A stretch of 64,000 bases of DNA. Origin: Siphonodentalium dalli (lineage: Eukaryota > Mollusca > Scaphopoda > Gadilida > Siphonodentaliidae). The position numbers and the translations under genes were made by a program. Of this stretch, positions 1,485 through 50,630 are shown in pieces. The stretch's first letter is position 1. Every line of letters starts with the position of its first letter. The stretch is from the NCBI GenBank assembly GCA_032622095.1, contig CP136069.1:82544958-82608957 (forward strand), read 5' to 3'. A model generated the notes under the pieces. The model was not told the DNA's origin and did no database searches. It saw only the letters and a program-made list of their open reading frames with translations.

Positions 1485-1656
1485 CTAAATACTGGTCTGA
1501 AGAACACCAAAAGGATCCGTTCTCTGCGTCATGCTCTGTGGGCCACATCTGAGTGATGGGTCCGGCCCTACCGCTCCCTGTGGACCCTTTGCTAGTGATC
1601 GGTCGCGTCCAACATTGTAATCTGGGTTAGGTCCTTGAGCAAGACTGCCTGTAGTT
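1485..1656 (-). CDS. Exon 11: terminal exon with GPxxSL repeats and stop
   Basis: 172 nt of coding sequence after acceptor cattttacag, ending in TAG at 1487-1485. It begins TTGSLAQGPNPDYNVGRDRS and continues with SLAKGPQ and GPDPSLRCGP units, then ends RTDPFGVLQTSI. The repeat motif crosses the exon 10/11 junction in frame, which supports the splice. A possible polyadenylation signal (AATAAA on the minus strand) lies at 1279-1274, inside a TTAA-flanked MITE. Confidence 0.9.
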
Positions 1657-4600
1657 CTGTAAAATGAATAATCAAAGTTTAGAGGAATATACATCTTAGC
1701 ACCAGTAAACAAGCTGATGAAATAAGTCTGAATTAACCCTTTTTGTCCCCACATCCGTAACATTGTCCCCACATTGTAACTAGCAATCTGATTGGCTACA
1801 ACGCCATGTCTAAATCACCATGTCCCCCATCACTCTTGACAGCGGGGTATAAGAGAACGTGCACCAAACATCAGGGGTATACGAGCATGTGAAACATTGG
1901 GGGTATATGAATGACCCTTGAACTGGTAGTTCCACCAATTGTGACGTTGCGCTCGCATATCGGATAACCTACGAAAAACACACTTAAATTAAGGAGACAC
2001 GGTTATTATTGTGGGGACAAAACCGTTATCTCTGGCAACATCGTGGGGTACATGGAGATTTAATACCTGGATGTCTCTTTTTGTACCCCCGATGTTCCCG
2101 AAGATAACTAATAATATACTAGAGCATCATTTACGAGTAGTTATCCCATAGGAAACATTCAGATAATAAGTTCAAATAATCACCATAGGTCGTTTGTTGA
2201 ACTTATGTTATCTAAACATTTCCCTCAGTAAATAGGACTCATAATAAACAAGTTTCAAAAATTGATATCTGATCAGTCAGAAATTTGATTGGTGGGTTCC
2301 TCAACTCAAATCAAATATTTTTTACCCCGGAGCCAAATATTAATTTATGTGCGTTTAATCAGATTATAAGCTTACGTTGCATCATAGACACCCAGTCCAG
2401 GAGGCATACTGGTAACTCCTGAAAACAAATTTGGGCAGGACTGGTTTTCGACCTCATCCAATATATTCATGAGTATAAACCATGATCAAATTTGGTCGAA
2501 ATTGAATTATGTTTGTTAAAGTTATCACTCATATGTCTCAAGATGAACACCCACTGCCATTTATAAAACCATAGGTCGAGTTTGTGATACAACAGAACTA
2601 ATAAAACTGTATATAATCAGTGTTTTGAATATTGGTCAACACTCACATTAAGAGCGATCTATCTGGACCTTTACGGAGAGATGTGTCAGGCCCCTTGGCA
2701 AGTGTGCTGTATGCAGATGTATAAGCTTTTGGTTGTGTTGACACCCCTGCCGGCTTTGGTCGAGTTTCCTTAGCAGCTCTGGCTGACGATGGTTTTGTAG
2801 TTTTGCTGAATAAAGATCCGAGAATTGCAGTAAAAATAAATAACAACTCTAACAGAAAACACACAACTGTAGACAACCAATGCAAAGTCTATTTGCATAA
2901 GAATTAAGAATCTTTCAGCTAATTTCAATAATTCTTCATGAGGTATACATAGGTAATTGGAAGTTTTATAATACTTGGGGTGATATCACTGCTGATGTTG
3001 GAAATTGATTATAACAAATTATTAGTAATAATTTAAGACAAAAAGTGTATTGCTCTGTGTGTACATCTAATATATAAATGTGAATGTGTGTGTCTCTCTC
3101 TCTGTGACTCTGTATGTTCCTTATAGCCATCCACATTTCTGCACCTATTGCAATGAAATTTGGCCTGCATATGTATTTCGGCACATGGTCTGGGTCCCGT
3201 CTCTGTCCAACGTCGCATTTTGACATCATATGTGCATGGGCAAACTGGTTTCTTCGGAAATAATGACTGGATCGCACTAAAATTTGGTATGGGCATGTAT
3301 TTCGGCCCTCCAGTTAATGTGAGATGGGTCTAAACTCTGGCCGACGTTATGATGTCATATCCACATGGGTAAAATGGTTTCTCAGGAACTACTGGCCAAA
3401 TCACACTGAAATTTGGTATTTCGGCTCTCCGGGTAACACAAGCTTGGTCCGAACTCCACCCAACATCATGTTTTGATATTATGACATCATATCCACACAG
3501 ACAAAACCGTTTCTCATAAACAACTGGTGGATCTCACTGAAATTTGATGTGGTCATGTATTTAGGCCCTCCGAGTAACATGGGCTGGGTCTCGACTCCAC
3601 CCAACAGCGCCTTTATTTTCTACCTTATCAGAACAAAGTACCATAACAATCAACACTCTTTAATATTCCCGTGCAATGCCGGGTACATCCGCTAGTGTAA
3701 ATAGAATTCAGATATTTATGTTAGGAAATAAATCCCAGTTTTGATAATTTACAAAAGTCAAACTAATATCATGCAGTAACATAATTATTTAAAGGTACTC
3801 AATCCGAACAGAGGGTCCCCATCTCAACAGATTCCAACAACAACAATCCGATCAGAGGGTCCTATATTACTATTTCTTTGGCTTTGGGGGTAAAAAATAT
3901 TTGATTCGAGTCGAGGAACCCATCAAACTAAGCTCAGAGTTATTAGATATTGATTTTTGAAATTTGTTATATTCTCGAGATGAGTACTAATAATTGCCGT
4001 CAATTTCGTATCCTGCTCGAGATGTGTACACCAAAACTCTATTCAAACAGACAAGGATGGATAACTCTAAAATCAAGTGGTAATAATAATGCAATTTTGA
4101 CTGTGTTCTGGGCCAGAAAGTATTCCCGATAATGAAAAATAATAGATTTCTAAAATCGATATCTAACAAATCTGAGCTTTGATGGGTGACTTCCTCGACT
4201 CGAATCAAATATTTTTGACCCCCAAAGCCATTGAAATAGTAATTGGGAGGAGTTTTATCGGATTGAGTACCTTTAAGCATAAGCTGCAACAAAATATCAA
4301 TGCAGAATGCAAAGGCTGGGGGATACATCTGTGGCCAATCCTGCAAACATGAAGTGTTAATGATGACGTCAAATTGGCAATTGATATATTTGTATAATCA
4401 TAAAATTCCAAAGCCGCTCTATCTGAAGCTGATATTAACATAAGCACATCAGATGAAAAAGTCAAAGAGCAAGTATTTAGCAGCTATTTCATGCAAGATA
4501 ACAACAGTTATTAATAACAGACATGTTTTGATTGAAAAACTGCGAACTTCGCCCATCAAGCAGAAACAGATTACAGATTCCATAAGGTGTGGCAGGAGTT

Positions 4601-7600: not shown

Positions 7601-10600
7601 TATAAGAGGGAAAAATACTTTCACAAGAATATCACAAAATCTCTGGAAATACTGCCCAATGTCTTACTTTGGAGACTTTAGGGCAAACATGCCATGAGAT
7701 GGGGATAAATAAGTCGGTAGACAACATAATTTTCCGATTATAAATTCACAAACTTTCCCTTTGAAAAGCCAATAATGATCTTAAGATTTACGTCTCTAGA
7801 ATACCCAATCAGATCACTTTTCTGTGAATGACGGGACATTCCCAAAGTGACGTTGCAAATTGCTTCCAAATATGGAGCACATGCCTGATGTAGTAAACTT
7901 TTTGAGATAAGTACCATTGGCTTATAAAATAAATAAAAGATAATGTGTCCAAGCTTGTGATGAGTAATTTATCGCTTCCATTTATAAATATATGTATATT
8001 GCCTGAATTCTGTATCTTAAAATTTGTTGTGTCATGCTATGTGTGGGAAAATAGTCATTGACCTCCGATCTCACAATTTCAATATAACCAATCAAGAAGC
8101 CATGTTTATTATTGTCGTCAGCTTTTTAACCCTTTCATGATGGGAGCTGTGCTGGTGCAGCATTAAAGACCAGCATATATAAGAGAATGCACTGGCTTAC
8201 AAGATCAAGGTAAATATTGTTAGGCCAATGTATTCTCTTATATATGTGAGGAACCCAATGGGAGACTCGCATATATAAGAGAATGCTTTGGCACAGGGTT
8301 TTCGCAAAATTTCAGGAAGCTCCAGTCATGGAAGGGGTAAAGAGACTGGACTTTGCCTGGCAATGAGCTGTTACTCTTACTAACCAATACAATTGAGCAT
8401 AGTAGCCCACATCAATAGGAAAATGCGATCTAAATGGGAATTCTTGACATGAAATCTGAAAGATTATTGCACATTTTTAACCCTTCCATGACTGAAGCTA
8501 CCTGAAATTTTGCGAAAACCCTATGCCAATGCATTCTCTTATTTATGCGAGTCTCCCATAGGGAGCCTCGCGTATATAAGAGAATACATTGGCCTAACAA
8601 TATTTTCCTTAACCTTGTAAGCCAGTGCATTCATATAAGGTAAGCGGGGCACCCTATGGGAGACTCGCATATATAAGACAATACACTGGCACAGGATCTT
8701 TAATTTTGCACCAGCGCAGCTCCCGTCATGAAAGAGTTAGAGACTGATTCGCAATTTGCTCAAATTTTAAATTTGGTAAAGCTTGAGAACCCAGGATTAT
8801 TTATTCAATGGCCTCATATACAGTAATGCTAAATTATAATCAACCCCTTAACCACAGCAGAATTATGGGTAACTTTTCAGGATTTAGTCGGAAATATGGC
8901 TTGTTGCCATTCATCGGGCTTTCAGATGAATGGCAACAAGCCATATTTCCGACTAAATCCTGAAAAGCTACCCATAATTCTGCTGTGGTTAAGGAGTCGA
9001 TTATTTAGAGCATTACTGTATATAAAGGTAGTCTACACTATATTGGGCATGCAATGATCTTACCCCTCGTCATCTTCCCTATCATCAGCTGGCCGTGCAC
9101 AACATGTACTGGCCAAATGATTAAGGGCATCATTTGTCTTGTTCAGTAACTGCTCGCTCATCCTATTGTGGCAGAGCAGAAGGGAGTGCAAGGGTTAATT
9201 AGTACTCTAGTGATTTACTCAGGAGGCAAGACAGAACAGAGTGGAAGTATGGCAGAAAGGGTCAGGGGGTTAAAGTAATGCCCTAAATAATCGACTCTTT
9301 AACCACAGCAGAATTATGGGTAATTTTTCAGGATTTAGTCGGAAATATGGCTTTTTGCCATTCATCGGAAAGCTCTCGGTGAAAGCTTTCCGATGAATGG
9401 CAACAAGCCATATTCCCCGACTAAATCCTGAAAAATTATCCATAATTCTGCTGTGGTTAAGGGGTCGATTATTTAGGGAATTACTGTACTACGTTTTCAA
9501 CTTTTCCGTGAACAATGACAAGAACCAGTCTATTGTGCGAAATTTTACAACTGTCTAAATTTCTGGTTCGCGAAAGTAAAAGTACATTTTAATGAATGAT
9601 TTTCATATCAAAGTTGATATAACTGCTTTGTGAATTAAAATTGCCATCTAGCTGTCGTCGGTCATTGTTTTTGCGACTCCATTGTCATTATATTTGCACG
9701 CGCTCAATGTCCTTGTTGAATAGATTGATTCTTGGTCGAAAGCACAAAAAATCTGAAAATGTAGGAACCTGACCCCTCCAGCGGCAGTACAAAGATCAGA
9801 GTTTTGCTCAGTCTGAGTGAACACTGACAATTGAACAGATATAATAATGCCCTAAGTAAATTGCTGTGAGCTTTCCGATGAATGACAACAAGCCATATTT
9901 CCGACTAAATCCTGAAAAGTTACCCATAATTCTGCTGTGGTTAAGGGGTCGATTACTTAGGGCATTACGTTACGTTTCCAACTTTACGGTGAACAATGAC
10001 AAGGACCAGTCTATCATGCAAAATTCGACAACAACTGTCTAAATTTCCACTTCTTGGAAGTAAAAGTACATTTTAATGAACGATTTTCATCTTAAAGTTT
10101 ATATAACTGCTTAGTGAATTGCTATCTAGCTGTCGTCGGTCATTGTGTCTTTATATTTGCACGCACTCAATGTCTCTTGTTGAATAGACTGTTTCCTCGT
10201 CGAAAGCGGCAAAAATCTGAAAACGTAGGAACCTGACCCCTCCAGTGGAAGTATGAAGATCAGAGTTTTGCTCAGTCTGAGTGAACACGGACAATTAAAC
10301 AGATACACCATCATGTTCAACAGTCTGCTACAAATAGCAGAGAATCCCATTTTCCTCCTATATCATGCTACGAATGAAACTATTGATGAGTCAAAAGTGA
10401 CATAGCACCAATAAGGTAAAGTGTGTTAATACTTTTAAAAAGTATTATATCAGTGTCGGCCAAACACAAATTGCAGCAAGACTCATCCGAAGCCAATTAC
10501 CTAGAAATACCTAGAAAGCGGTGGTAATACGAAAGATATCGGAATGTTTCAGACGATCGAACGAGTCTTGAAATAGTGTGTCTGTCATTTGCAGAATGAG

Positions 10601-13600
10601 GTCCCCAGAGGGTGAATTTAGTGATGCTACACCGCACAGCGGGCTAGCATCACTAAGTTCACCCTCTAGGGATCTTATTTGGCTATGTCCTCATCTTCTG
10701 GGAAGTATCTAGTCTCAAATTAACATTGTTTTTAGTTACTTTTTCACTTCTGTTCTCAATCCCATAACTTGCAGAAGATAAAATGCATAATCGAGGTGAC
10801 TGATGGATGAACATCACCAACTTCAAATGAGGAACTTCAATCTGATCCTAGTTCACCCATAGGGTTTAGGCCTCAGCAGAATGAGGTTCCCAGAGGGTGA
10901 ATTTGATGATGCTAGCCCGCTCTGCGGGGTAGCATCACTAAATTCACCCTCTGGGAACCTCATTCTGCAAATGACAGACAAACAATTTCAAGGATTGCCA
11001 TCGAATGCGTAGCTGTTCAATAGTCTGTGTTCGACAAACTATTTTTAGATAAACACTTCTTAATTATGGGTCAACAAGTAAACTCCATATTTATAATCAT
11101 ATTCAGAAAAATATACATTTGTATATTTGTTTGCAAACAGAGTAGCCACTGATTCACTCATTCAACATTATTTTGTATAGGACTTAAAGACATACTATGC
11201 ACTTATATTGATGAATCAAACAAATACCAGTAATTACCCCTGCACTTTGCCTAATGACATAATTTATTACCGAGAATTCCAACCTCACCAATCATACCAT
11301 TTCAGAAAACAAAACGTCTGAATGACGCACAATTGTATATTTAGTACTTTAATCGGGACGAATTTATCATAGATAAACAAATGGCAATTATTCCGTTAAC
11401 AAGAGTAGCTGCATATATATCCCTTTTATGATGAGAGCTGCACTGGCACAGTATTAAAGATCCTGTGCCAGCACATTCTGTTATATATGCGAGTCTCTCA
11501 TTGGTAGGGAGCCTCGCATATATAAGAGAATGCACCGGCTTACAAGGTCAAGGTAAATATTGTTAGGCCAATACATGTATTCTTTTATATATACCAGTGC
11601 TGGGCGGTTTTCCGATTAATCGACAATACCCGGTTAAAATTTCAATATCGTCAGTAATATCGTCTAAACTAAAATAACCGTAATATCGTCGGCAATCAGT
11701 GGGTGCCAGCCAATCATAAGCGTATACAAACAAATAGTTTAACTCAAGCCTAAATAGAGTTATTTAAGTTTTAAATTCCAACTAAATCCTGTGTCCTGAT
11801 TTTTTCAATATTCAATCATCATAGTAAACAACGTTTAGAACAACTAACGAAATTAGGGGAATATGAAATACGTCACAATATTACACAAACCCTCCGACTT
11901 CTCTGCGTAATATTTATTACAAGAGAATTCAACAAATGAATCGACGACTGATCAGGTGATAGATCGATATGAATGTCAGTTAGGCCACGCTCTTCCTTCA
12001 GTACAATGATGCACATCCACTGCCAATCAATAATAAATGGGCGAAGATACCGCCCTCTTATCGTCTAGAAGAAACCACTCACTGCGATTAGTTAAAACCA
12101 ATTGTATAGAATTAGGGCTTCAAACCTGCCCAAAAATACATGGTGTCCTTGCTTGGCCGAATTCCAAAAGTTATGTACGTGTGTTTGGACTTCGCTAAAA
12201 GACTAAACCTCATTGTCAAATTTGTCTTGACGGTAAACCACATTTCCATTTGTCAAGCGACGCAAGTGTCATCGGGAATAACATATATATTTACTCTCAA
12301 CATAGTTGAACATACCGAGTTAGAAAAGGATACTATAGTATAGAACACTTTTAGTTTTGGCATAGACGAGATAATGGTTTTATTAATTACCGGTATATAC
12401 CATAATTTGTCAAGTCACGGAACGAAATTGTCCGAATAGCGGAATTTAACCAGTGAATTTACTTTTCATTCAGAATATCGATTGAGCATGAGGTTGTCAC
12501 TGGTTGAGTGGTTGTATATGTTATTCCCGACGTCAAATTGTCAAATTTAATGACAATGATGTGATTCTAGTGAACAGTGAGAATTTTTTTTCAGTTTCTA
12601 GTATCTGTTTCAAAAAAACGCAATTATATCGTTAACCGCGGTTTTAATTTCAAAAAATCGCGGTTTTTATTTCCGCTAATATCATCCAGCCCTAATATTT
12701 ACGAGGCTCCCTATGGGAGACTTACATATATAAGACAATGCATTGGCACAGGGTTTTCGCAAAATTTCAGGACGCTCCAGTCATGGAAGGGATATATATA
12801 AGAATGAAGGTGGGATATAGAATTTATGAAAGATAACTGTGGTATTCTCTATTCCCATTCGACCATCCAAGCCGAGTTTTTCACATCACTTTAATGTGTC
12901 CAGACAAAACATGGAAATTCCGACAATTCTACAGCACAGCACAATCTAACAAGAAACAAATCAACACGGTCTTGTAAATTGAGCGGATCTTGGCCTAAGA
13001 GGATGAAAACAGTAATTCTATCATTCATTTAACCCTATCTATACTATAAAGATTACATTGGAATTCTATTATTATCTGGAGGGATTTTCGGAAAAAAATA
13101 AGCAGATGACAGATAATACAAGTACAGAAGGAGTCCTATTTATTGCAGAGAAATGTTCAGATAATAAGATAATAGGTCGTTTGTTGAACTTATTATCTGA
13201 ACATTTCCTAAGGGATAACTACTCGCCTGAGTGTATTCAGTAGAGATAAGGGTTAATACCATGGTATGCATTTATTGGAGCATTTGAACCCTAAATACTC
13301 ATGCACTAAATACTGATTGATGAGTAGTTTTTTCCTTAGGAAATATTCAGCCAAATTTCTGCACATAAGGATCAAGTCCTGTACTCACCGGTAAACATCT
13401 GTGACTTTATGGTCTTTGTTAACAGCAGCTCTTTTAGGAGAAGCATGAGCAGAAGTAGCCGGTACTGTTGGTGTAGCACGTGAAGTGGTCGCTACTGGCC
13501 TTGTACCCTTAGCAATAGTGCTGGAAAACAATTCTGATATAAGGCAAGGTAACTGACATGAATATTCACATGAAGTTATCTATGACAATGAACACAATTG

Positions 13601-40600: not shown

Positions 40601-43600
40601 TGACTCGTTCCCATCTACATGTCATTATTAACATTCTTGACAAATTTTATGATGATCAGACTAAAAGTACGACCTGTAGCCCGTGCTAAAGAATTTAGTC
40701 ATACAAAGAGTAAAATCCAAGATGGCTGCTGGCGGCCATGTTTTTGGGCCGAATGACCCCAAAATTACTCGTTCCCATCTACATGTCAATATTAACATCC
40801 ATGACAAATTTCATGACGATCAGACAAACAGTACGCCCTGTAGCCCGTGCTAATGGATTGAATTTTGAAATGCAAGATGGCCACTGGCGGCCATGTTTTT
40901 TTACCGAATGACCCCAAAATTAATCATTCTGGTCTAAATGTTGATGTCAACAGCTATGACAAATTTCATAATGATCCGACCAAAGGTACGACCTGTAGAC
41001 TGCATTGTTGACGCCTTACGTACACACGCACACACGTACACACGGACGACGGACGACAAAGCCATGGCAATAGCTCAAACTTTACAAAGTAAAGTTGAGC
41101 TAATAAGCCATCATAATACATGTACTAGTACAACAACCACCACCTTTTTAATCATTTGTATTTAATTGTACGCATATAGCGCACAACGGGATGACACTAG
41201 TGTGTAAACTAGCTTCCGAAATTGGTACCATACAACGAAGAATGAATTACATGTACCGGTATATGGCGTAATTTGTATTCTTTCAGAAACAGTTAAATTA
41301 GTTTCACACGAAATTCCACTCGCTCATTGCATTTCTGCATAAATTAATCTCATTTCAAACAACTTTTATCGCCTCAAAGTGCATTTTAGCCATCATTATT
41401 CGTAATATAATCCAACATTCTAGCAAATCCAGTTCATAATTCAGCACATTCAAACAATTTTATTCCGTAATCGCTATTTATCGTAAAGGCTTAGGTAATT
41501 AACCAGCGTAATTTATCAACTCGTTACGCGATTGGCGGAATTATTTCAAGCTCCACCCACCGCTGTCATCGGTAAGCGTCGAAGCAGATGATCGGTCATG
41601 TGATCGCGTTGTGGTCATGTGATCGCACTCACGTGACTGACTTCGGATATTTCCACGATTTTTTAAATATCATAATAATAAAAATACTATCTGCTCGATT
41701 TTGAATTTTCTTGGCGAAATGGGTCTGTTAGACATATATTATTAGTATTGTGACGATAAAAAAAATATTTTTTTGACAGACTAATTCCTTTAAGGAGAAC
41801 AGATTTAATTAGGTTTTCCGGACAGTGTGGGAACCAGGATTTAAGCTTCATACTTTCTTAAGGAGAACAGATTTAATTTGGTTTTCCGGACAGTGTGGGA
41901 ACCAGGATTTAAACTTAATAATACTTACTTATCGAGAACAGATTTAATTTGGTTTTCCGGACAGTGTGGGAACCAGGATTTAAGCTTCTGCACCTTCCCA
42001 CTGAATGAGTTTGGTGATTCTTCGCTCAGACGTGTTTCTTTCTTCTACAGAAATAATCAAAATTCAGTCCATAATTAGTAAACAAATTCATGAAATCATA
42101 CATGTAGTTGCAGGCACCAGATTTTAAAGAATAACCATTTTTCGAATTTTGTTATGAAATAATGACATGCTTTGAGCAGGCCTTCTGTGGTTTAAAATTT
42201 CTAACAAAAGGAAAAAGACAGTTAATTCCTGTTATTAAGATCATCACCATACCGTAGAGAATGATAAAGACTGGCATCTATCAAGTCTACAAAGAAAGTG
42301 ACTGTCTGATTCAAATTTACTAGAAATTATGGTAGAGTATTTTATTCATATCCAGATATACCCATTTGGGAATCACAACAGCATTAGTAGGCTTATTAGA
42401 ACGTTCAAGATTTGATTTGATTTTATGTAAAATCACAAAAGGTTCAATTCAAAATATTTTGAAATGATCGAAAATATTTGAAGCCCTCCTGCAATGGGAG
42501 ATGCCTGCGAATAGCTCTAATATAAAAATGAAAATGCCCTTAACACATTGACTGCCAACTATGAGTTATTTCGTACTTTTTGCATGTAATTGAATGGGAG
42601 TCGGCAGTCGATATGTTAAGACATTGTCTTTATCGTGGTTGAACAGAAGGGAGATAACCATGCAGGTGGGAGCTTGCTAAAATTATGGTGTATCAATGAG
42701 TTGAGATGAGTTAAAAGTAATTGAATATTTAGTATAATGTTATGCAACATTTCTTGAAAGTTCAGAAGGATTTTGGAAATTAAAGCCACATGGCGGATTG
42801 AAGTGCCAAGTCCAATTTTTGTATCAACCCATATTTCCTTGATCATTTTTCAAATTTATTGATTATAATAATGTGATACATTAATGGAAAGAGCTCTTAC
42901 CATCAATGTATCACATTATTATAATCAATAAATTTGAAAAATGATCAAGGAAATATGGGTTGATACAAAAATTGGACTTGGCACTGAAAGGGTTAAAACA
43001 TGCCAGCAGATGGGTATTAAGCATTCATCTTCATATAAATATGGCTGGCTGTAAAGTGCAAGAATAAATCATAGACGATTTTAGAAGATTACAGCAAAGG
43101 CGTACATATAAGCAAAATGTCCACATAACAATAAAATAGATCTTACATATCCTTTAATGGAGCTTCCTGAAATTTTGCGAAAACCCTGTGCCAGTGTATT
43201 CTCATATATATGGGAGTTGCCCATATGGCGCCTCACATACATGTACATGTATTTAAGAGCATGCAATGGCCTACAAATATTCACCTTTACATTGTAAGCC
43301 AGTGCATTCTCTTATATATGTGAGGCTCCCTATGGGGATGCACTGGCACAGGATCTTTAATGCTGCACCAGCACAGCTCCCGTAATGAAAGGGTAATAGA
43401 TGGCTGATTACGAGTTGTCTCGCAATTTACAAATTTCTCATACTGGACCATCCCTCAGGGGTACTACTACGAGTTGACTCATATTTATTAATACATACGG
43501 AATCTCATATTTCTACTCAAGAAAGTGAAGAAACTGAAGTTACTGAACCCCAAAGTACATGTAGGCACCAGATTTAAAAAAAAAAATTTATGAAATAATG

Positions 43601-46600
43601 ACATGCTCTTGAGCAGGCCTTCTGTGGCTTAAAATTTTGAACAAAAGGAACAAGACAGTTAATTCCTGTTATTAACCCTTTGAGTGCCAGGGGCCAATCT
43701 CATCGGCACTAAACCTACAAAATAAGTTTGTTAAAGAATATTTATATAAGAATAAATTATTAAAATTGTAAAAAATTTAAAACAAAACAAAAAAACAAAA
43801 ATTGTTAGGCCAATGCATTCTCTTATATATGCGAGGCGACCTATGGTCGACTCGCATATATAAGAGAATGCATTGGCACAGGGTATATGGGTTGATACAA
43901 AAATCGACCTGGCACCCAAAGGGTTAAGACCATCACCAGACCATAGAGAATGATAAAGACTGGCATCTATAAAGTCTACAAAGAAAGTGACAGTCTGATT
44001 CAAATTTACTTGAAATTATGGTAAAGTATTTTATTCATATTCAGACATATCGATTTGGGAATTTCAATAGTATTAGTAGGCCCATTAGATGTCAAAATAA
44101 ATTGTGAATCTTAACAATTTCCTCTACAGTTGATGGTGGCGGTACACAAATTGTCAATTCACTTATTTTACACTTTTACACGCGAATTTAAGGTTTTTGT
44201 CACAGTTTACGGTACCTACATGTACATGTATCATTGTTTATATGGCGTGCCAAATGACAAAACAACTTTACATTAACCCTTTACCCAACAAAACGGCCAA
44301 AAACGCCCAAATAAAGCTTCAACAGCCTAAAATATCTTCGGTCTGTCTCAATAACACCATACAAATATGGATATCATTGGAACCAGTTCATTGACCACAT
44401 TGTGATGGTTACAGTTATGCCCTGTGCCAATGCATTCTCTTTTATATGCGAGTCGACCATAGGTCTATAATATATAAGAGAATACATCGGCCTAAAAAAA
44501 ATCTTTTTTACCACTTTTTACCATTTTGTTTTACATTCTTTAACAATTTTATAATTTTTTCTTACATTTTTTAACAATTTTTATAATATTTTTCTACATC
44601 CTTTGACACTTTTATCATTTTTAATATGTGTTAAGCCAATGCATTCTCTTATATATGCGAGGCGACCTATGGTCGACTCGCATATATAAGAGAATGCATT
44701 AGCACAGGGCCGTTCTGTTGGGTAAAGGGTTAACCCTTCAAATTGTCAAAAATAAAACAAAATATATAATAAATTGACTTTATCTACATGTATATTACCG
44801 TTGATATTAAGAACTTGGCTTTAATTATCGACTGAATTACTAATACTATTACATGTAGATATTCATAATTTGTTGAAAGACTGAGATTTCCCCCCCAGTG
44901 GCCATAGGGGTACCATTCCCCAACCCCTAGCGGAAACCCTGAATGATAGTATGAATGCAATAATACCCACAAAACACACTTTGTATGTGAATGAGTATTT
45001 GTTTATATACACACAGCATGTAAAGAGTATGCGATAAGCAAAAGGCGAAAAAAAAAAATTTGGGAGAGTGATTCACGGTGATCCATTCAACACCAAAATC
45101 TTGTGTGGTGAGGATCAGCGAGCACTATATCGGTATGTTGTAAATAATATGGTGTCAATTTTAAGCAAAGTTCACTCTCTGAGGTCTCCCCAGTGTTGAG
45201 TGTTTTGCGTGTCGCACATTCTTTACCCAATGTACTGTATCATAATATATGGCTTCTGTTTACTAACAAGGTCATACGTTTTTGACAATAACATGATATT
45301 TATGCGATATTTATGATTTGTATAAGAATAAAATATTCTTTCTGTTTATCGCGGTTTTAACGGATGTGAATTTTAACCCTTTGAGTGCCAGGTCGATTTT
45401 TGTATCAACCCATATACCCTGTGACAATGCATTCTCTTATATATGCGAGTCGACCATAGGTCGCCTCGCATATATAAGAGAATGCATTGGCCTAACATTT
45501 TTTTTGTTTTTTACAATTTTAATAATTTATTCTTATATTCTTTAACAGACTTATTTTGAAGGTTTAGGGCCGATGAGATCGGCCCCTGGCACTCAAAGGG
45601 TTAAAACAACTATACCCATCGAGAAGGCCATCTGTATCTTTAAAACAGGCCATCGCTATGCTTCGCTGCCTAAACCCTCTTCTCTCACTCACCTGTGTAT
45701 TGTTAGTGAACGAGTTATACCAATCGTCAGAAGAACTGACACCGGACAGAGCGGTCATGGCGATGTTGGCATCTTCATCTGTCTCCCACTCATTATTTTC
45801 AGAATCACTATCTTCATTCAGGGTCTAAACCAAGGGAAAATACTCACAATATGGACATGCAGTAAAACGAGCAAATACTTCACTTTCGAAGCAAATTTGC
45901 TGGAAAATGAAAACATGCTAAAGTTAGAACATTTGAAACACTTACGAGAAACACACAATTCATCTGAGTAAAATTTTTGAAGCTAGTTGATCTCATTCAA
46001 TAGTCTTCTAAAACTACAGTAATGCCCTAAATAATGGACTCCTTAACCCTTAACTCATATACCCTGTGCCAATGCATTCTCTTATATATGCGAGTCGACC
46101 ATAGGTCGCCTCGCATATATAAGAGAATGCATTGGCCTAACAATTATTATTTTTTTTTATTTTTTTTTTTTTTACAATTTTTTACAATTTTAATATATTT
46201 TATTACATTCTTTAACATACTTATTGTGTAGGTTTAGGGCCGATTAGATCGGCCCCTGGCACTCAAAGGGTTAACCACAGCAGAATTATGGGTAACCTTT
46301 CAGGATTTAGTCGGATATATGGCTTGTTGCCATTCATCGGAAAGCTCTCACTCATTACTGTAGATTCACACAACTTTACTTCATTGAGGGGACTAAGTCA
46401 AACTCTATATATAAGTAATGTAATCCCAAATGCTCTTCAAAAATAGTTATCAGGCTGCAGATTTGTTACCCATAGTTTGTTTATTTTACCCACTAAACAT
46501 TAACCAAACATTGATTGGAATTTGTGGAAGATAGGTACAAACCATGAAATAGTATGTCTGTCATTTGCAGAATTAAGCCCCCCCCCTCCCCTGAGCAAAT

Positions 46601-49600: not shown

Positions 49601-50630
49601 TGAAATATTCATATGGTCATTCTATGCCATCACACATTTCCAAATAGGCCTTTATTTTGATGCTTTGATAACTGAATAATCACATTTGTAAAGAGAACGT
49701 TCAGCTTATATTAAAGTTCAACAAACATTGATTAAACTAGAACCGGTATCTGAACATCCCTACAAATGAAAAATGAACCATCCAAAGTATACATTTAAAA
49801 GTGAATGGAAGAATCCAATCAGTTATCATAGCATATCAGAGATAATGATAGAGTAATGTCCTAAATAATCGACCCCTAAAACCACAGCAGAATTATGGGA
49901 AATTTTTCAGGATTTAGTCGGAAATATGGCTTGTTGACATTCATCAGAAAGCTCTCGGTGAGAGCTTTCCGATGAATGGCAACAAGTCATATTTCCGACT
50001 AAATCCTGAAAAATTTCCCATAATTCTGCTGCACGGTTAAAGGGTCATATACTTTTGGAGTTACTGTAAAGAGTCTGTGTAGGGCTGAATTGGTTACTCT
50101 CACCAGTTTTTGTGATAAAGTTTCCCAAATTCCTAAAATTGTGATAAAGTTAGTCAGGTTGGGGAGAATAATGTCATGCATAGCAATCAAATATTCACTT
50201 TTTTGCGATCAAAAGACAAACTCCAGAACTAATATTTCTTAATTTTTGCTCAATGAGGATGATCTCTTCCAAAATTTTTACACTATTTCACCTCAGTTAC
50301 TTTTAAATCGTGTTCATATTGTGAGATTTGCATAACCTGGGTAACTTGTCTTTATCACAATTTTGGGAACCTGGGTAACTTTATCACAAAAAAAACCAGT
50401 AAGAATGACCAATTCAGGCTGCGTATGCATGTACCTTAGCAGCGGTATGGTGAGCAGTAGATCGACTTGCTGATGCACCTGTGGCTCCCGCTGTGTGATG
50501 TGTACCACCAGTTGCAGTCGATTGCTGGGCTGGCCTTGGTGAATGCCCACCAGTTCCTCCTTGAGAGGCATAGTATTCGGCTCTAGGATCTTCCCATGTA
50601 GTAGAGTGATCTGAGTGATTTATATAAAAG
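1485..50630 (-). CDS. Host gene, WW and CUE/UBA-like adaptor-type protein, 11 exons (5' end missing)
   Basis: Spliced gene on the minus strand. Exons (transcript order): 50630-50435, 45824-45693, 42044-41929, 35189-35016, 32609-32458, 22689-22560, 20527-20378, 13520-13389, 9162-9064, 2805-2647, 1656-1485. Every intron is GT-AG and phases match at all ten junctions, which gives 536 residues and a TAG stop. Residues 1-16 are the C-terminal half of a WW domain (second Trp at 12, Pro at 15). Residues 66-109 are acidic. Three CUE/UBA-like segments follow: about 126-168 (FP at 134-135), 184-226 (FP at 192-193) and 258-297 (LP at 268-269). Residues 301-460 are mostly Ser/Thr/Pro/Lys-rich linker. Residues 461-525 repeat a GPxxSL motif. 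Known for these families: WW binds proline motifs, CUE/UBA binds ubiquitin. An adaptor role is inferred. I do not recognise the gene name, and the first half of the WW domain is not in any exon I could find. Confidence 0.85.
2100..2235. mobile_element. Family C fragment
   Basis: Contains acgagtagttatcccatagg and ataataagttcaaataatc, the terminal and central parts of family C, without TTAA borders. Confidence 0.5.
2647..2805 (-). CDS. Exon 10: basic linker and first GPxxSL repeats
   Basis: 159 nt, phase 2 at both ends, acceptor ctttattcag, donor gtgagt. It begins KTTKPSSARAAKETRPKPAG and ends with STLAKGPDTSLRKGPDRSLL. That ending starts the tandem Gly-Pro-Asp...Ser-Leu motif array that continues in the last exon. 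Confidence 0.9.
3066..3695 (+). mobile_element. Helitron-like non-autonomous element with minisatellite
   Basis: Begins TCTAATATATAAATGTG after an A and ends with a small hairpin (cccgtgcaatgccggg), a short spacer and CTAG before a T. It has no terminal inverted repeats and no target duplication. This is the standard Helitron plan (TC start, hairpin, CTRR end, A/T target). The middle is a diverged tandem repeat of about 150 bases (3115-3605, about four units with ggtttct and aaatttg). Confidence 0.65.
3793..4272. mobile_element. TTAA-flanked palindromic element, family J (AGGTACTCAATCC ends)
   Basis: TTAA at 3789-3792 and 4273-4276. Ends are aggtactcaatccga and tcggattgagtacct. The two halves are long imperfect complements (attactatttctttggcttt and its partner). 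AG-type ends with TTAA targets resemble Kolobok MITEs rather than piggyBac; this is tentative. Confidence 0.7.
4453..4690 (+). other. Weakly coding-like stretch of unknown nature
   Basis: The plus strand has a 63-residue frame (MKKSKSKYLAAISCKITTVI at its start), and a second frame (DYRFHKVWQEFVPKGSS) overlaps its end. The minus strand is also open here. It might be a decayed gene fragment. I cannot assign it. Confidence 0.2.
4868..4918 (+). repeat. Short tandem repeat, unit about 18 bases
   Basis: Three copies of cagaaaacgc, two of them cagaaaacgccct, spaced about 18 bases. Confidence 0.6.
5300..5985. repeat. Four-unit tandem repeat (about 170 bases each)
   Basis: Units begin at about 5332, 5494, 5667 and 5841 with aaacaaagatgaataactct. 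Each contains gtcctcatag and gaacatccat. The block starts with acaagagatgg...cggtgcatacc and ends with acggacggacgg and a T-rich run, which suggests a mobile element with an internal repeat. Confidence 0.75.
6055..6121. mobile_element. Family C fragment
   Basis: A short segment starting taaccctttctttactaaat and continuing to gtaatgttccgatca, next to the A-family copy at 6123. Confidence 0.5.
6123..6377. mobile_element. Paired-hairpin element, short form (family A)
   Basis: Same ends and twin hairpins as the copy at 51-304. The two hairpins are joined by only about ten bases (gagttgtaa), with the longer internal segment missing. Confidence 0.8.
6520..6643. mobile_element. Palindromic element with perfect 9-bp duplication (Mutator-like size)
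   Basis: A nearly perfect hairpin: arms of about 57 bases start tagtccaagtcttctcgtac and meet at a short loop. It is flanked by cagtggtac at 6511-6519 and 6644-6652. Nine-base duplications with long inverted repeats are typical of Mutator-like elements. Confidence 0.75.
6784..7217. mobile_element. Paired-hairpin element, long form (family A)
   Basis: Two family-A hairpins separated by about 190 bases containing the conserved internal segment (attatgcattttatcttctg and ttgagactatatatacttcc). The ends are variants of cttgcctgcaaa. Confidence 0.75.
7475..7552 (+). CDS. Possible short first exon on the plus strand
   Basis: An ATG begins MSDVSPDIDIVTEHAPGHPF and runs to DLEW before a weak donor (gtctat). 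The surrounding 160 bases are GC-richer than the intron. The opposite strand is also open. Too little evidence to decide which strand, if either, is coding. Confidence 0.2.
8130..8336. mobile_element. TTAA MITE, family B
   Basis: TTAA at 8126-8129. The right target has decayed to GTAA. Same two core palindromes as the copy at 814. Confidence 0.7.
8481..8736. mobile_element. TTAA MITE, family B
   Basis: TTAA at 8477-8480 on the left; TTAG on the right. Core palindromes with gcattctcttatttatgcga and its partner are present. Confidence 0.7.
8821..9018. mobile_element. Tc1/mariner-like palindromic MITE, family H
   Basis: CAGTAATGC ends flanked by TA on both sides. Long arms (aattatgggtaacttttcag and complement) meet near a short loop. 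Lies just downstream of exon 9. Confidence 0.75.
9064..9162 (-). CDS. Exon 9: small phase-2 exon between two palindromic MITEs
   Basis: 99 nt. The acceptor has a long pyrimidine tract (cactcccttctgctctgcc then acaatag) and the donor is gtaaga. It carries one leading base, 32 codons and two trailing bases, so it fits the phase-2 junction between exons 8 and 10 exactly. The peptide begins MSEQLLNKTNDALNHLASTC and ends acidic (DDREDDE). It lies between two near-perfect palindromic elements (8821-9018 and 9274-9486). It could be skipped without changing frame, so it may be alternative. Confidence 0.7.
9274..9486. mobile_element. Tc1/mariner-like palindromic MITE, family H
   Basis: Arms from agtaatgccctaaataatcg to its complement, with the central aagctctcggtgaaagcttt. 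TA flank on the right. Confidence 0.75.
9376..10320. repeat. Tandem duplication of about 480 bases
   Basis: The stretch around 9376-9840 (family-H arm, gtgaacaatgacaag, then tgtaggaacctgacccctcc) recurs at about 9860-10315 in the same order with scattered changes. Confidence 0.75.
9845..9976. mobile_element. Family H MITE, half copy
   Basis: One end (taatgccctaagtaa), then the second arm of the palindrome through to gggcattac. It is part of a local tandem duplication of about 480 bases. Confidence 0.65.
10562..10997. mobile_element. Paired-hairpin element, long form (family A)
   Basis: The terminal hairpins flank the conserved internal segment (tcatcttctgggaagtatct and aacatcaccaacttcaaatg). 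Ends resemble caagccttgaaatagtg. Confidence 0.75.
11421..12791. mobile_element. Family B MITE split by an hAT-like insertion
   Basis: The family-B sequence runs 11421-11594, is interrupted by a 1.1-kb element, and resumes at 12695-12791. Both outer flanks are ATAT-rich rather than TTAA, so this copy either used a non-standard target or its target has mutated. Confidence 0.72.
11595..12694. mobile_element. hAT-like non-autonomous transposon
   Basis: Ends are CAGTGCTGGGCGG on the left and, read inward from the right, TAGGGCTGGATGA. The element is flanked by an 8-bp duplication, atatatac (11587-11594) and atatttac (12695-12702), with one mismatch. The interruption of a family-B copy fixes both borders. 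The 8-bp duplication and CAGNGCTGG ends are standard for the hAT superfamily. No transposase is seen. Confidence 0.8.
13033..13252. mobile_element. TTAA MITE, family C
   Basis: TTAA at 13029-13032 and 13253-13256. The ends are ccctatctatact and its complement. The central palindrome has arms gttcagataataag and its complement. Confidence 0.75.
13285..13350. mobile_element. Family C fragment
   Basis: About 65 bases of the family-C terminal segment (actaaatactgattgatgag and ttccttaggaaatattcag), just after the intact copy. Confidence 0.5.
13389..13520 (-). CDS. Exon 8: Thr/Ala-rich linker
   Basis: 132 nt, phase 2 at both ends, acceptor attgttttccag, donor gtgagt. It begins TIAKGTRPVATTSRATPTVP and ends DHKVTDVY. 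No domain is visible. It is kept as an exon because of its strong splice sites and exact phase match with neighbours. Confidence 0.88.
13684..14084. mobile_element. Paired-hairpin element, long form (family A)
   Basis: Left hairpin is shortened (loop side deleted). The right hairpin uses a variant arm (gattcatgtagggtgaattt) matched on both sides of its own loop. The arms of one hairpin therefore vary together. Confidence 0.7.
14759..14956 (-). pseudogene. Gag-like coding trace in DIRS-like copy 1
   Basis: A minus-strand reading frame contains LPSSEWASSSAGRYVAKAER followed by ELVSSHLKSSGLLELTDEEE. The same module recurs with frame breaks at 24960-25100 and about 27000-27130 in copy 2. Shared composition across copies suggests a decayed structural (gag-like) protein. 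No reverse transcriptase or recombinase motif is visible. Confidence 0.4.
15190..15415 (-). pseudogene. Gly/Pro-rich coding trace in DIRS-like copy 1
   Basis: Minus-strand sequence resembling 27450-27690 of copy 2. Both contain a GYLGPPGHL-type peptide, and both are GC-richer than their surroundings. Frames are broken. Probably part of the element's former structural protein. Confidence 0.35.
18276..19601. mobile_element. Harbinger-like element nested in DIRS-like copy 1
   Basis: Ends are ggcctaaaaaaaaaatacat and, inverted, ggcctaaaaaaaaaagacgt, continuing ttgtttccgctaac on both sides. It is flanked by TAA (18273-18275 and 19602-19604). Copy 2 carries the intact site gacattgataaaccaagat at about 28437 and 28803. 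A TAA duplication and GG-type ends fit PIF/Harbinger. No transposase was recognised. Confidence 0.75.
20378..20527 (-). CDS. Exon 7: Ser/Thr/Pro/Lys-rich linker
   Basis: 150 nt, phase 2 at both ends, acceptor gtttcag, donor gttagg. It begins QQPRSKPRPKSTSPPKTMTT and stays low in complexity to SSQATK. The outer end of the large DIRS-like element lies at 20349, only about 27 bases past this donor, so the element landed almost on the splice site without removing it. Confidence 0.87.
20617..20960. repeat. Shorter relative of the 5.3-kb tandem repeat
   Basis: Shares acaagagatgg, ggtgcatacccatgtggcat and aacaaagatgaataactcta with the block at 5205-6045, in the same order but with fewer units. Confidence 0.65.
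21541..22555. mobile_element. Family J fragments
   Basis: Partial family-J sequence at about 21541-21660, 21835-21890 and 22400-22555, recognised by gatgggtgggttcctcgact and ttaccccgaagccaaag. Another fragment is at about 2255-2360. The stretches between are AT-rich with nothing recognisable. Confidence 0.55.
22560..22689 (-). CDS. Exon 6: third CUE/UBA-like segment
   Basis: 130 nt with a strong acceptor (cactttctttcag) and donor gtaaga. It enters in phase 1 and leaves in phase 2. It holds one whole helical unit: KSKYESQFKELPQSVVHMAL, then EACNYDETNVSKILEMSI. Leu-Pro replaces the usual Phe-Pro. The Asn-Tyr-Asp, Val and Ile-Leu pattern fits the second and third CUE/UBA helices. Confidence 0.9.
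22930..23700. other. AT-rich intron, nothing recognised
   Basis: Long T and A runs, no repeat structure and no splice-flanked frame. Confidence 0.6.
23714..23874. mobile_element. TTAA MITE, family C, internally deleted
   Basis: TTAA at 23710-23713 and 23875-23878. Starts ccttttctttattaaatgg. The central palindrome is missing. Confidence 0.68.
24007..24351. mobile_element. TTAA MITE, family E, nested in the DIRS-like end
   Basis: TTAA at 24003-24006 and 24352-24355. Ends are ccctttacccaaca and tgttgggtaaaggg. It splits the sequence tttccTTAAagaaagcctg, which is intact in the other DIRS-like copy near 14194. Confidence 0.85.
26195..26540. repeat. Two tandem copies of a 190-base unit in DIRS-like copy 2
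   Basis: The units at about 26145-26335 and 26360-26540 share gcagagttg...cagcatg, caggccc and gagcttcct...aaagctgag. Copy 1 has a single unit at about 16605-16795. Confidence 0.6.
26598..26809 (+). pseudogene. Exon-like segment inside DIRS-like copy 2
   Basis: A plus-strand open frame runs through DNQIDIGNSSMKSHEMYSVG to a Cys-rich end (CVSCGSCHLPMKC) and stops at a strong donor-like sequence, atcacag then gtaaga. DIRS-like copy 1 has no equivalent. It may be a captured host gene fragment. I cannot identify the source, and it may be chance. Confidence 0.35.
30175..30933 (-). CDS. Uncharacterised 252-residue reading frame, probably retroelement ORF1-like
   Basis: Single uninterrupted frame on the minus strand in the intron between exons 5 and 6. 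The first ATG gives MDLFPSQVVHVLSAYQFVHC. Next comes a Lys/Arg block (TKNKKKKSKPPSRRRRDADR), a Thr/Pro/Ala-rich part with about 20-residue repeats (RDTRATPEAPAA, RDANTIPDVPAA), and a charged C-terminal helix (WKEEKEKQERQHQ). An AATAAA lies about 75 bases past the stop (minus strand, near 30100). It does not match the phase of the neighbouring exons. The basic patch suggests nucleic-acid binding. I do not recognise the family. Confidence 0.5.
   Translation of the reverse strand: MDLFPSQVVHVLSAYQFVHCVSWNLHASSERLEGVLNYLVTLVEPSTGRDLERHAGIHQNGSFTITTKTKNKKKKSKPPSRRRRDADRKARWKQGAERCPAPLHFALGQDHLPTVDVVTEITTSGNRDTRATPEAPAADIEARGDRDANTIPDVPAAYFVVLMESPPFPSMTLEDTHTIPRTPTYIGPESSSPWQRSPPGAAEDEETTAAWRRLEIEMTKAQEHTRRWKEEKEKQERQHQATSPPSSGEKQH
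31522..31648. mobile_element. Family H MITE, half copy
   Basis: Contains ctttccgatgaatggcaaca and the right arm through to gagcattactgta. The left arm is deleted to a few terminal bases. Confidence 0.65.
31998..32440. mobile_element. Paired-hairpin element, long form (family A), next to exon 5
   Basis: Two degraded family-A hairpins around the usual internal segment. Its right end lies about 17 bases from the exon 5 donor. Confidence 0.72.
32458..32609 (-). CDS. Exon 5: end of second CUE/UBA-like segment and basic linker
   Basis: 152 nt, acceptor cgtattgtag, donor gtaagt. It enters in phase 2 and leaves in phase 1. The peptide starts CGNDVTETKKVLKSLGYHPK, closing the second CUE-like unit, and continues with a Pro/Ala/Arg-rich linker. 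A hairpin-pair mobile element ends only about 17 bases beyond the donor (31998-32440). Confidence 0.9.
33225..33300 (+). repeat. 28-base tandem repeat, three units
   Basis: Repeated tttgtaaatttcatgtct joined by gatacatca or aacacatca. The flanking 33300-33480 contains two G/C runs and gttggaaat motifs. Confidence 0.65.
33720..33959. mobile_element. TTAA MITE, family B
   Basis: TTAA at 33716-33719 and 33960-33963. Ends are ccccttcatgactggagc and its complement near cgtcatgaaaggg. Confidence 0.75.
34642..34795. mobile_element. Palindromic MITE
   Basis: Arms tctacaactcgtcccaagtt and its complement (loop near tcgccaaaggctcg). AT-rich flanks; no clear target duplication. Confidence 0.6.
35016..35189 (-). 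CDS. Exon 4: end of first and start of second CUE/UBA-like segment
   Basis: 174 nt, phase 2 at both ends, acceptor catttctttttaag, donor gtgagg. It encodes EKENMGIACFELQKKGYKNV, the third helix of the first CUE-like unit. After a short linker comes DLQRIQAEFPSVGSNLVQDV, the first two helices of the second unit. So each CUE-like unit is split by an intron after its second helix. Confidence 0.9.
35552..35811. mobile_element. TTAA MITE, family C
   Basis: TTAA at 35548-35551 and 35812-35815. Full central palindrome with gttcaaataataagttcaac and its complement. Confidence 0.75.
36174..36642. mobile_element. TTAA-flanked palindromic element, family J
   Basis: Same ends and halves as the copy at 3793-4272, with TTAA at 36170-36173 and 36643-36646. 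Both copies share the internal gagatgagtactaa region. Confidence 0.72.
36885..37097. mobile_element. Tc1/mariner-like palindromic MITE, family H
   Basis: Ends CAGTAATGCCC and its complement, each bordered by TA (36883-36884 and 37098-37099). This copy is almost fully self-complementary. Confidence 0.8.
38115..38261 (+). pseudogene. THAP-domain N-terminus fragment
   Basis: The frame starts ATG and reads MPSRCSVFSCGRASDPLFST. This is the classic opening of a THAP zinc finger: Met-Pro, then Cys-x4-Cys. The remaining Cys-x2-His and AVPTF-type motifs are absent, and the frame ends soon after. Either this is a first exon whose partners have been lost or a decayed copy. THAP domains bind DNA in transposases and transposon-derived proteins. 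Confidence 0.55.
38825..41000. repeat. 160-base satellite array with two alternating unit types
   Basis: About 13 units carry tggcggccatgttttt, gaatgaccccaaaat and catgacaaatttta. Type A has tttagtcatacaaagagtaa at its start; type B has attaaattttgaaatcc. Type B starts at about 39240, 39890, 40375 and 40858. The last two intervals are about 484 bases (B-A-A). The array ends in a CA-rich stretch and gacggacgac. Confidence 0.85.
41792..41986 (-). repeat. Tandem partial duplication of host exon 3
   Basis: Three units of 56-71 bases each contain ggttttccggacagtgtggg. Units are at 41792-41859, 41860-41930 and 41931-41986 (the authentic exon). A 38-base fragment lies at 37365-37402 beyond the transposon. 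The extra copies keep LKSWFPHCPEN but lose the exon's own acceptor and good donors. Confidence 0.85.
41929..42044 (-). CDS. Exon 3: start of first CUE/UBA-like segment
   Basis: 116 nt, phase 0 start after tttctgtag, phase 2 end at the perfect donor gtaagt. It encodes KVQKLKSWFPHCPENQIKSV plus flanking residues. The spacing from hydrophobic residues to Phe-Pro and on to Ile/Val/Leu matches the first helix and loop of a CUE domain. The domain is completed by exon 4. The 3' part of this exon with its donor is duplicated in tandem immediately downstream (41792-41930), with a further fragment beyond a transposon at 37365-37402. Confidence 0.87.
42095..42395. repeat. Segmental duplication, uninterrupted copy
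   Basis: Matches about 43555-44080 (aaataatgacatgct, gagcaggccttctgtgg, gaatgataaagactggcatc). The second copy differs mainly by the family-D insertion. Confidence 0.75.
42544..42615. mobile_element. Very short TTAA element (72 bp)
   Basis: TTAA at 42540-42543 and 42616-42619. Ends are cacattgactgcc and, inverted, catatcgactgcc. Confidence 0.55.
42784..42992. mobile_element. TTAA element with family-D end but different core
   Basis: Long inverted repeat with arms agtgccaagtccaatttttg and its complement. The middle arms (attgattataataatgtgat) are unrelated to other family-D copies. The right end is gcactgaaagggTTAA. The left end has diverged. Confidence 0.7.
43150..43395. mobile_element. Family B MITE, degraded
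   Basis: Contains ggagcttcctgaaattttgc, the two core palindromes (diverged) and cccgtaatgaaaggg. Borders are weak. Confidence 0.6.
43676..43923. mobile_element. TTAA MITE, family D, with paralogous empty site
   Basis: TTAA at 43672-43675 and 43924-43927. Ends are ccctttgagtgccaggg and its complement. The flanks match a nearby duplicated segment in which the same site is a single TTAA (around 42235). The element therefore inserted at TTAA after the duplication. Confidence 0.85.
44277..44729. mobile_element. TTAA MITE, family E
   Basis: TTAA at 44273-44276 and 44730-44733. Ends are ccctttacccaaca and tgttgggtaaaggg. Contains the family core in two palindromes separated by a T-rich stretch. 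Confidence 0.8.
45377..45600. mobile_element. TTAA MITE, family D
   Basis: TTAA at 45373-45376 and 45601-45604. Ends ccctttgagtgccagg and cctggcactcaaaggg. Contains the core gcattctcttatatatgcga and its inverse. Confidence 0.82.
45693..45824 (-). CDS. Exon 2: acidic segment
   Basis: 132 nt, phase 0 at both ends, acceptor ttggtttag, donor gtgagt. It encodes 44 residues starting TLNEDSDSENNEWETDEDAN and ending SFTNNTQ. The segment is Asp/Glu/Ser-rich with three Trp residues and probably disordered. Phase 0 joins it exactly to the exons on either side. Confidence 0.88.
46017..46365. mobile_element. Family H MITE interrupted by a family D MITE
   Basis: Left end cagtaatgccctaaataatg, then the nested element at 46047-46270, then ccacagcagaattatgggta. 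The second arm is mostly missing. Confidence 0.78.
46047..46270. mobile_element. TTAA MITE, family D, nested in a palindromic MITE
   Basis: TTAA at 46043-46046 and 46271-46274. It splits a family-H element at its own TTAA (ctccTTAAccacagcag), giving a second demonstration of the target. Confidence 0.85.
46537..46920. mobile_element. Paired-hairpin element, truncated (family A)
   Basis: Left hairpin and internal segment are present. The right hairpin stops after its first arm near 46920. No matching right end is seen. Confidence 0.65.
47234..47477. mobile_element. TTAA MITE, family B
   Basis: Left flank is ATAA and right flank TTAA (47478-47481). Contains ccctttcatgactgaagctt and two core palindromes. 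Confidence 0.7.
47594..47922. mobile_element. TTAA MITE, family F (CCTCTTCGCTGC ends)
   Basis: TTAA at 47590-47593 and 47923-47926. The ends are cctcttcgctgct and agcagcgaagagg. Near the left end are two small hairpins, gtccgtagctattacggac and ggtccgtaggtactacggac. Confidence 0.8.
47930..49850. other. AT-rich intron, nothing recognised
   Basis: Almost 2 kb without a hairpin, repeat family or exon candidate. Confidence 0.6.
49852..50066. mobile_element. Tc1/mariner-like palindromic MITE, family H
   Basis: Full palindrome with small changes in both arms (gggaaatttttcaggattta). TA flank on the right. Confidence 0.75.
50435..50630 (-). CDS. Exon 1 of the visible part: second half of a WW domain
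   Basis: Minus-strand exon of 196 nt, preceded by a pyrimidine-rich acceptor (tccatttcag) and followed by donor gtacat. It starts with one base that completes a split codon and ends in phase 0. The peptide opens FYINHSDHSTTWEDPRAEYY, the typical second and third strands of a WW domain, with the conserved Asn-His, Thr-Thr-Trp and Pro-Arg. A low-complexity Gly/Ser/Thr/His/Ala tail follows. The first Trp of the WW domain must lie in an upstream exon. Confidence 0.9.

Follow-up and report, generated by a model that had tools for sequence, protein, structure and literature searches.

We describe a locus that, judged from its sequence, looks like a real, single-copy animal gene and whose product combines a divergent WW domain with three CUE/UBA-like modules and a C-terminal array of GPxxSL repeats. 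The whole gene comprises no fewer than 12 coding exons, spread over about 63 kb, and, from the chosen start codon, encodes a 564-residue protein. With a rough probability of 0.55, we suggest that this protein is a WW-to-ubiquitin adaptor that would bridge PPxY proteins and ubiquitin. The window, i.e. the whole stretch of 64,000 nucleotides that was analysed (C9:82544958-82608957 of a 2.23-Gb genome in 9 contigs), holds the gene except for its first coding exon.

An earlier note on this DNA had claimed an in-phase gene of 11 exons and 536 residues with GT-AG introns throughout. Without being given the strand, we reproduced this gene on the minus strand: eleven spliced exons between 1485 and 50630 translate into 536 residues followed by a stop codon, and the introns between them are GT-AG in 10/10 cases and in phase in 10/10 cases. 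The note had given outer coordinates only (1485-50630); because exon count and length are equal, we take its inner exons to be those listed in Table 1. Exons 3, 5, and 8 to 11 are symmetric and, therefore, skipping any one of them would keep the frame. An AATAAA hexamer lies 206 nt past the stop codon.

Table 1 Coding exons of the gene in window numbering
Coding exon	Content	Position	Strand
1	ATG and first half of the WW domain	64875-64957 (beyond the window end)	-
2	Second half of the WW domain (FYINHSDHSTTWEDPR) and Gly/Ser/Thr/His-rich linker	50435..50630	-
3	Acidic linker TLNEDSDSENNEWETDED...; 132 nt, symmetric phase 0-0	45693..45824	-
4	Linker and first half of CUE-like module 1 (LKSWFPHCPENQIKSVLDK)	41929..42044	-
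5	Second half of CUE-like module 1, linker, first half of CUE-like module 2	35016..35189	-
6	Second half of CUE-like module 2 (CGNDVTETKKVLKSLGY) and basic, Pro-rich linker	32458..32609	-
7	Nearly whole third CUE/UBA-like module, without internal intron	22560..22689	-
8	Ser/Thr/Pro/Lys-rich linker; 150 nt, symmetric 2-2	20378..20527	-
9	Thr/Ala/Pro-rich linker; 132 nt, symmetric 2-2	13389..13520	-
10	MSEQLLNKTNDALNHLASTCCARPADDREDDE; 99 nt, symmetric 2-2	9064..9162	-
11	Basic linker and first two GPxxSL units; 159 nt, symmetric 2-2	2647..2805	-
12	Remaining GP-repeat tail and stop codon; C-terminus ...RTDPFGVLQTSI	1485..1656	-

The introns are repeat-rich. One of them carries a tandem array at 38841-40998 with spacings of 155, 164, 250, and 319 bp, and across positions 1-64000 there are many short interspersed and inverted repeats, comprising 20 direct families and 23 inverted pairs of at least 120 nt, some of which read MRSPxGEFSDD... 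Ten of the larger intronic open reading frames had no Pfam match at E up to 0.01.

The eleven exons in the window open at a splice acceptor (FYINHSDHSTTWEDPR), lack an ATG, and contain the second half of the WW domain only; the 11-exon model is confirmed but incomplete, missing the start codon and the first WW half. To find this half, we built our own WW profile from 15 of the 27 WW matches in the genome and joined exon 2 to each GT in the 101 kb upstream that left an open stretch of 8 codons or more (n=3248 joins). The best join used an exon 0.9 kb outside the window that supplies both an ATG and the first WW half (MAQAQKYKWIPPLPPAYEARWDQNNGA-Y), and this exon raises the count of coding exons to at least 12. 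Its score of 34.2 bits with our own profile does not by itself separate it from the best of 3526 plus-strand control joins, which reached 34.1 bits. With the Pfam WW profile, the same join scored 42.9 bits as compared to 25.5-33.6 bits for seven other joins (four controls and three upstream joins, picked from the 20 listed). The chosen ATG has an A at -3 and a G at +4. An in-frame stop codon lies upstream of it with two more in-frame ATGs in between and, therefore, the protein may begin up to 16 residues earlier. No match came from pattern searches for the complete WW domain or its first half; all patterns required a Trp at the position where this domain has a Tyr.

The earlier note had called the gene model strong on the grounds that all junctions keep frame and all introns are GT-AG. 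Phase and GT-AG alone prove nothing: at the splice thresholds that the model needs, 66 kb of sequence yields 185 candidate exons of 80-200 nt on the minus strand, of which as many as 44 can be chained in phase, and the 188 candidates on the plus strand still allow an in-phase chain of 38; we therefore ruled out such a chain as proof of a gene. The strength of the model lies instead in codon usage, in the domain halves, and in a shared intron position described below. In a leave-one-exon-out test, in which codon usage was trained on the other eleven exons and the null consisted of stop-free segments of the window at least as long as the tested exon, 12/12 exons ranked within the top 0 to 3.5%. 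The weakest were exon 5 (9/261), exon 7 (21/624), and exon 12 (6/273); the value of exon 1 was reached by 1 of 1429 null segments. Moreover, the two halves of the WW domain, of CUE-like module 1, and of CUE-like module 2 lie in separate exons and are joined in phase into domains. Searched at E up to 1, the 2.23-Gb genome yielded 14 rows: each of the 11 exons at this locus, two incomplete copies of the CUE1 exon next to it, and one minisatellite; no second full copy of the gene was found in this genome by this search, which may miss weak matches. The minisatellite (L005, G000:C5:199077500-199081000) is the only match off the locus. It had been a paralogue candidate (E 0.08) and was rejected as such, the stretch being a minisatellite in which the reading frames give long, regular peptide repeats (SDGSVPDT / EPSLVSGT).

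In the full-length protein, residues 13-43 match the Pfam WW domain (PF00397) at 35.6 bits (cut-off 26.9; E 9.2e-9) over profile positions 1-31 of 31. This score includes the exon outside the window, and the half inside it scored 14.4 bits in the 536-residue protein; thus, the WW domain proposed from the window lies above the Pfam cut-off once the outside exon is added, the window itself holding one half only. WW domains usually have both name-giving tryptophans, and the Pfam score does not require them. Here the second is a Trp; because the first is replaced by Tyr17, we refer to a divergent WW domain. By comparison, the first Trp is kept in 15/15 other WW domains of the same genome (15 of the 27 matches were fetched). 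Among the best 60 of 91 sequence matches in solved structures, the closest WW domains are those of Itch, NEDD4L, WWP1, CG4244-PB, and YAP1, and the WW strand FYINHSDHSTTWEDPR is close to YFLNHNDQTTTWQDPR of a YAP1-dendrin construct. The stretch Y17-E18-A19-R20, in which the first aromatic residue is followed by Glu at +1 and Arg at +3, fits the NEDD4 WW pattern in the excerpts of PMC6801763. From these sequence features, the domain is probably of the NEDD4/YAP type and would bind PPxY motifs.

Two other WW-containing loci in the genome, C8:82105957 and C8:88787079 (G000), lie 6.7 Mb apart, have equal WW scores (45.6 and 33.0 bits each) and open frames of 903 residues each, and are possibly duplicated intron-poor copies. 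One piece fetched from there (L024) reads like the start of a KIBRA-type protein.

The three CUE/UBA-like modules span approximately residues 154-194 (CUE-like 1), 212-252 (CUE-like 2), and 285-325 (module 3). Because module 1 scored 17.0 bits against Pfam CUE (PF02845), under the cut-off of 21.1, and modules 2 and 3 had no CUE or UBA match in Pfam, we use the label CUE-like; the three CUE/UBA-like segments proposed earlier are upheld in this sense, clearly for modules 1 and 2 and less so for module 3, and not as Pfam members. As references, we used CUE domains of the same genome, for which there were seven matches, five of which were fetched and four aligned (L015 was left out). In comparisons with three of the seven (the weak L013 was left out), 0/200 shuffles equalled module 1 and 0/200 equalled module 2, while module 3 was equalled or beaten by 4/200. 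The three modules together matched four CUE candidates of the genome with a profile probability of 91.8, over 30 columns only. When the modules were aligned to one another with hhalign, shuffles equalled the true score in 14/200 cases for modules 1 and 2, in 128/200 for modules 1 and 3, and in 1/200 for modules 2 and 3; in a fixed ungapped register, the corresponding values were 2, 1468, and 1 of 100000. Sequence searches of the PDB with the single modules at E up to 10 gave none, five, and three matches, respectively, and no named UBA/CUE chain.

Roles of an MFP motif and an LL pair in ubiquitin contact are described in the excerpts of PMC6688830. In modules 1, 2, and 3, the MFP positions read WFP, EFP, and QFK, with the central Phe kept in all three, and the LL pair reads EL, VL, and IL (register set by eye); by sequence, the ubiquitin-contact motifs are only partly kept. 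Modules 1 and 2 also share an intron position: in both, a phase 2 intron lies 14 residues past the F of FP (F162 and K176 in module 1; F220 and G234 in module 2). Exon 5, which links the two, is symmetric (phase 2-2), and its 174 nt, or 58 codons, equal the spacing of modules 1 and 2 from residue 162 to residue 220. Most likely, the two modules go back to the duplication of a symmetric exon of 58 codons; each such event would add one module. At 41790-41988, running from exon 4 into the next intron, a 71-bp unit that includes part of the CUE1 exon occurs 2.9 times head-to-tail. The extra copies beyond exon 4 lack a splice donor (read by eye) and look inert.

Module 3 is the only module contained in a single exon. 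Its predicted model has helices at 3-7, 13-22, and 27-41 (mean pLDDT 75), and of the 12 Foldseek-ranked chains the six listed entries gave Z-scores of 5.4 (HBS1-like domain), 5.3 (EDD UBA), 4.5 (USP5), 4.0 (HHR23A UBA), 3.9 (gp78 CUE), and 2.9 (archaeal Af1502). The UBA/CUE-type matches (Z 3.9-5.4) are below the caution level of the tool for helical bundles, and the model covers module 3 alone; a Z of about 5 is modest for a 42-residue helical bundle, and the module is weak by sequence. By this model, module 3 may adopt a UBA/CUE-like three-helix fold. From its name, we infer that the top entry, the HBS1-like domain in PDB 1ufz, is the UBAh domain of PMC13232801, the text of which does not contain '1UFZ'. 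According to its excerpts, the N-terminal UBAh domain of mouse HBS1L binds ubiquitin although it is divergent, while the yeast UBAh domain does not.

The C-terminal tail (residues 471-564) contains three exact GPxxSL repeats, one GRDRSL, and six GP dipeptides. Among 20000 shuffles of the tail, six GP were reached in 4 and four G[PR]xxSL in 0, in agreement with the GPxxSL array described earlier. Modeled from exon 12 only and as a single sequence, the tail has a mean pLDDT of 64.8, rising to about 90 in a hairpin at the C-terminus. The last residues, ...TDPFGVLQTSI (1485-1520), include a DPF tripeptide motif and a C-terminal T-S-I of the kind that would fit a class I PDZ ligand; both could be due to chance. 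The protein is without an enzyme domain detectable with Pfam or NCBIfam: SMR, HECT, and SNF2 domains were absent when all 564 residues were scanned against Pfam at E up to 10, and NCBIfam gave no match to the 536-residue protein.

Together, these domains suggest how an adaptor would work. Its N-terminal WW domain would bind PPxY motifs, and the three tandem CUE/UBA-type modules would read ubiquitin, although one of them might instead recognise a folded partner; several weak ubiquitin contacts would add up. The linkers and the GPxxSL tail, probably flexible, may serve as docking sites for further partners. The protein would link PPxY proteins to ubiquitinated ones, for example substrates or adaptors of NEDD4-type ligases. 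We infer all of the binding, the partners, and the role in the cell, and we have doubts about the adaptor reading because the MFP and LL motifs are incomplete and the WW domain is altered.

Three alternatives bear on this reading to different degrees. The most basic is that the model stitches together parts of different genes or stretches of non-coding DNA, so that its domain set is an artefact. The ease with which in-phase chains arise by chance, with 38 exons on the plus strand, argues for it, as do weak splice sites (exon 8 acceptor -1.2 and exon 1 donor 0.3 in our own matrix). However, codon usage favours coding for every exon, the WW halves of two exons join in phase into a full profile match, and the halves of CUE-like modules 1 and 2 in three exons likewise join in phase with agreeing intron positions; we regard an artefact as highly improbable. 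Another alternative concerns the WW domain. The Tyr in place of Trp turns LPPAY (usually LPxGW) into a PPxY sequence and, therefore, the domain could bind itself or another WW protein; it might then be weak or self-occupied, with LPPAY binding to its own domain, to that of a second copy, or to a NEDD4-type ligase. This would agree with PPAY at residues 14-17 being the sole [LP]PxY in the protein and with the contrast to the 15 other WW domains compared, but LPPAY belongs to the first part of the WW fold, where it may not be available as a ligand, and the profile match is otherwise full length, so that we consider self-occupation unlikely.

Finally, gene and domains could be real while the CUE-like modules bind folded partners other than ubiquitin, making the protein a scaffold unrelated to ubiquitin. 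This has a precedent in SMARCAD1, the CUE1 domain of which binds the RBCC fold of KAP1, with loss of binding largely caused by F169A according to the excerpts of PMC6688830, and the modules here, with incomplete MFP and LL motifs and yet a central Phe in each, would suit such a mode. On the other hand, a run of three similar modules suits weak multivalent reading of ubiquitin, yeast Cue2 is proposed to use its CUE and UBA domains to recognise ubiquitinated ribosomes (PMC9841427, excerpts), and the UBAh domain of mouse HBS1L, as opposed to that of yeast, shows that a divergent domain can bind ubiquitin (PMC13232801, excerpts). We hold the ubiquitin-unrelated scaffold to be possible and rather doubtful, and favour the WW-to-ubiquitin adaptor.

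Several known systems resemble this protein in part. Like it, yeast Cue2, NONU-1 of C. elegans, and human N4BP2, which act in no-go decay, have several CUE/UBA modules. These proteins are endonucleases with an SMR nuclease domain, whereas no nuclease domain was detected in the 564-residue protein. The order given for Cue2 in the excerpts of PMC13232801 and PMC9841427 is CUE-CUE-UBA-CUE as compared to CUE-like, CUE-like, CUE/UBA-like here, and the same excerpts make no mention of a WW domain or a GPxxSL tail in Cue2/NONU-1/N4BP2, both of which are present here. SMARCAD1 has two CUE domains in tandem, one of which binds a non-ubiquitin fold (PMC6688830, excerpts), but is an SNF2 ATPase (PMC6713675) while our protein lacks an SNF2 domain. 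The NEDD4-family ligases, to which several of the closest WW sequences belong, carry a HECT domain; the protein described here has no HECT domain and a single WW domain in which the first Trp is a Tyr. CUEDC1 is a CUE protein tied to the WW-HECT ligase Smurf2, and there the WW domains belong to the ligase and the link is one between two proteins (PMC7655170, excerpts); in the excerpts of PMC2873481, WW and CUE likewise occur in different proteins. Within the open-licence papers searched, we found no single protein with both WW and CUE, and there the earlier remark that no characterised protein was known with WW, three CUE-like segments, and a C-terminal GPxxSL array met no counterexample. The parts (WW, CUE, and UBA) are known and the combination seems new; the protein may be conserved but unnamed in many invertebrates. 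A more far-reaching proposal, which we consider quite improbable, is that WW, tandem CUE-like modules, and GPxxSL repeats define a separate family of invertebrate adaptors that is absent from vertebrates by loss or from the outset, in which the WW domain with its own PPxY (LPPAY) would switch between self-binding, dimer, and NEDD4-ligase-bound states and exon duplication would tune the number of ubiquitin-reading modules.

At present, what the locus offers is an interesting combination of domains, not yet a new mechanism. The link between PPxY motifs and ubiquitin is thought to run mainly via NEDD4-type ligases and their adaptors. If the adaptor reading is true, an animal adaptor would couple PPxY recognition directly to ubiquitin reading without itself being a ligase, and its phase 2 symmetric exon, equal to one CUE repeat, would show how ubiquitin-reading arrays can grow by exon duplication.
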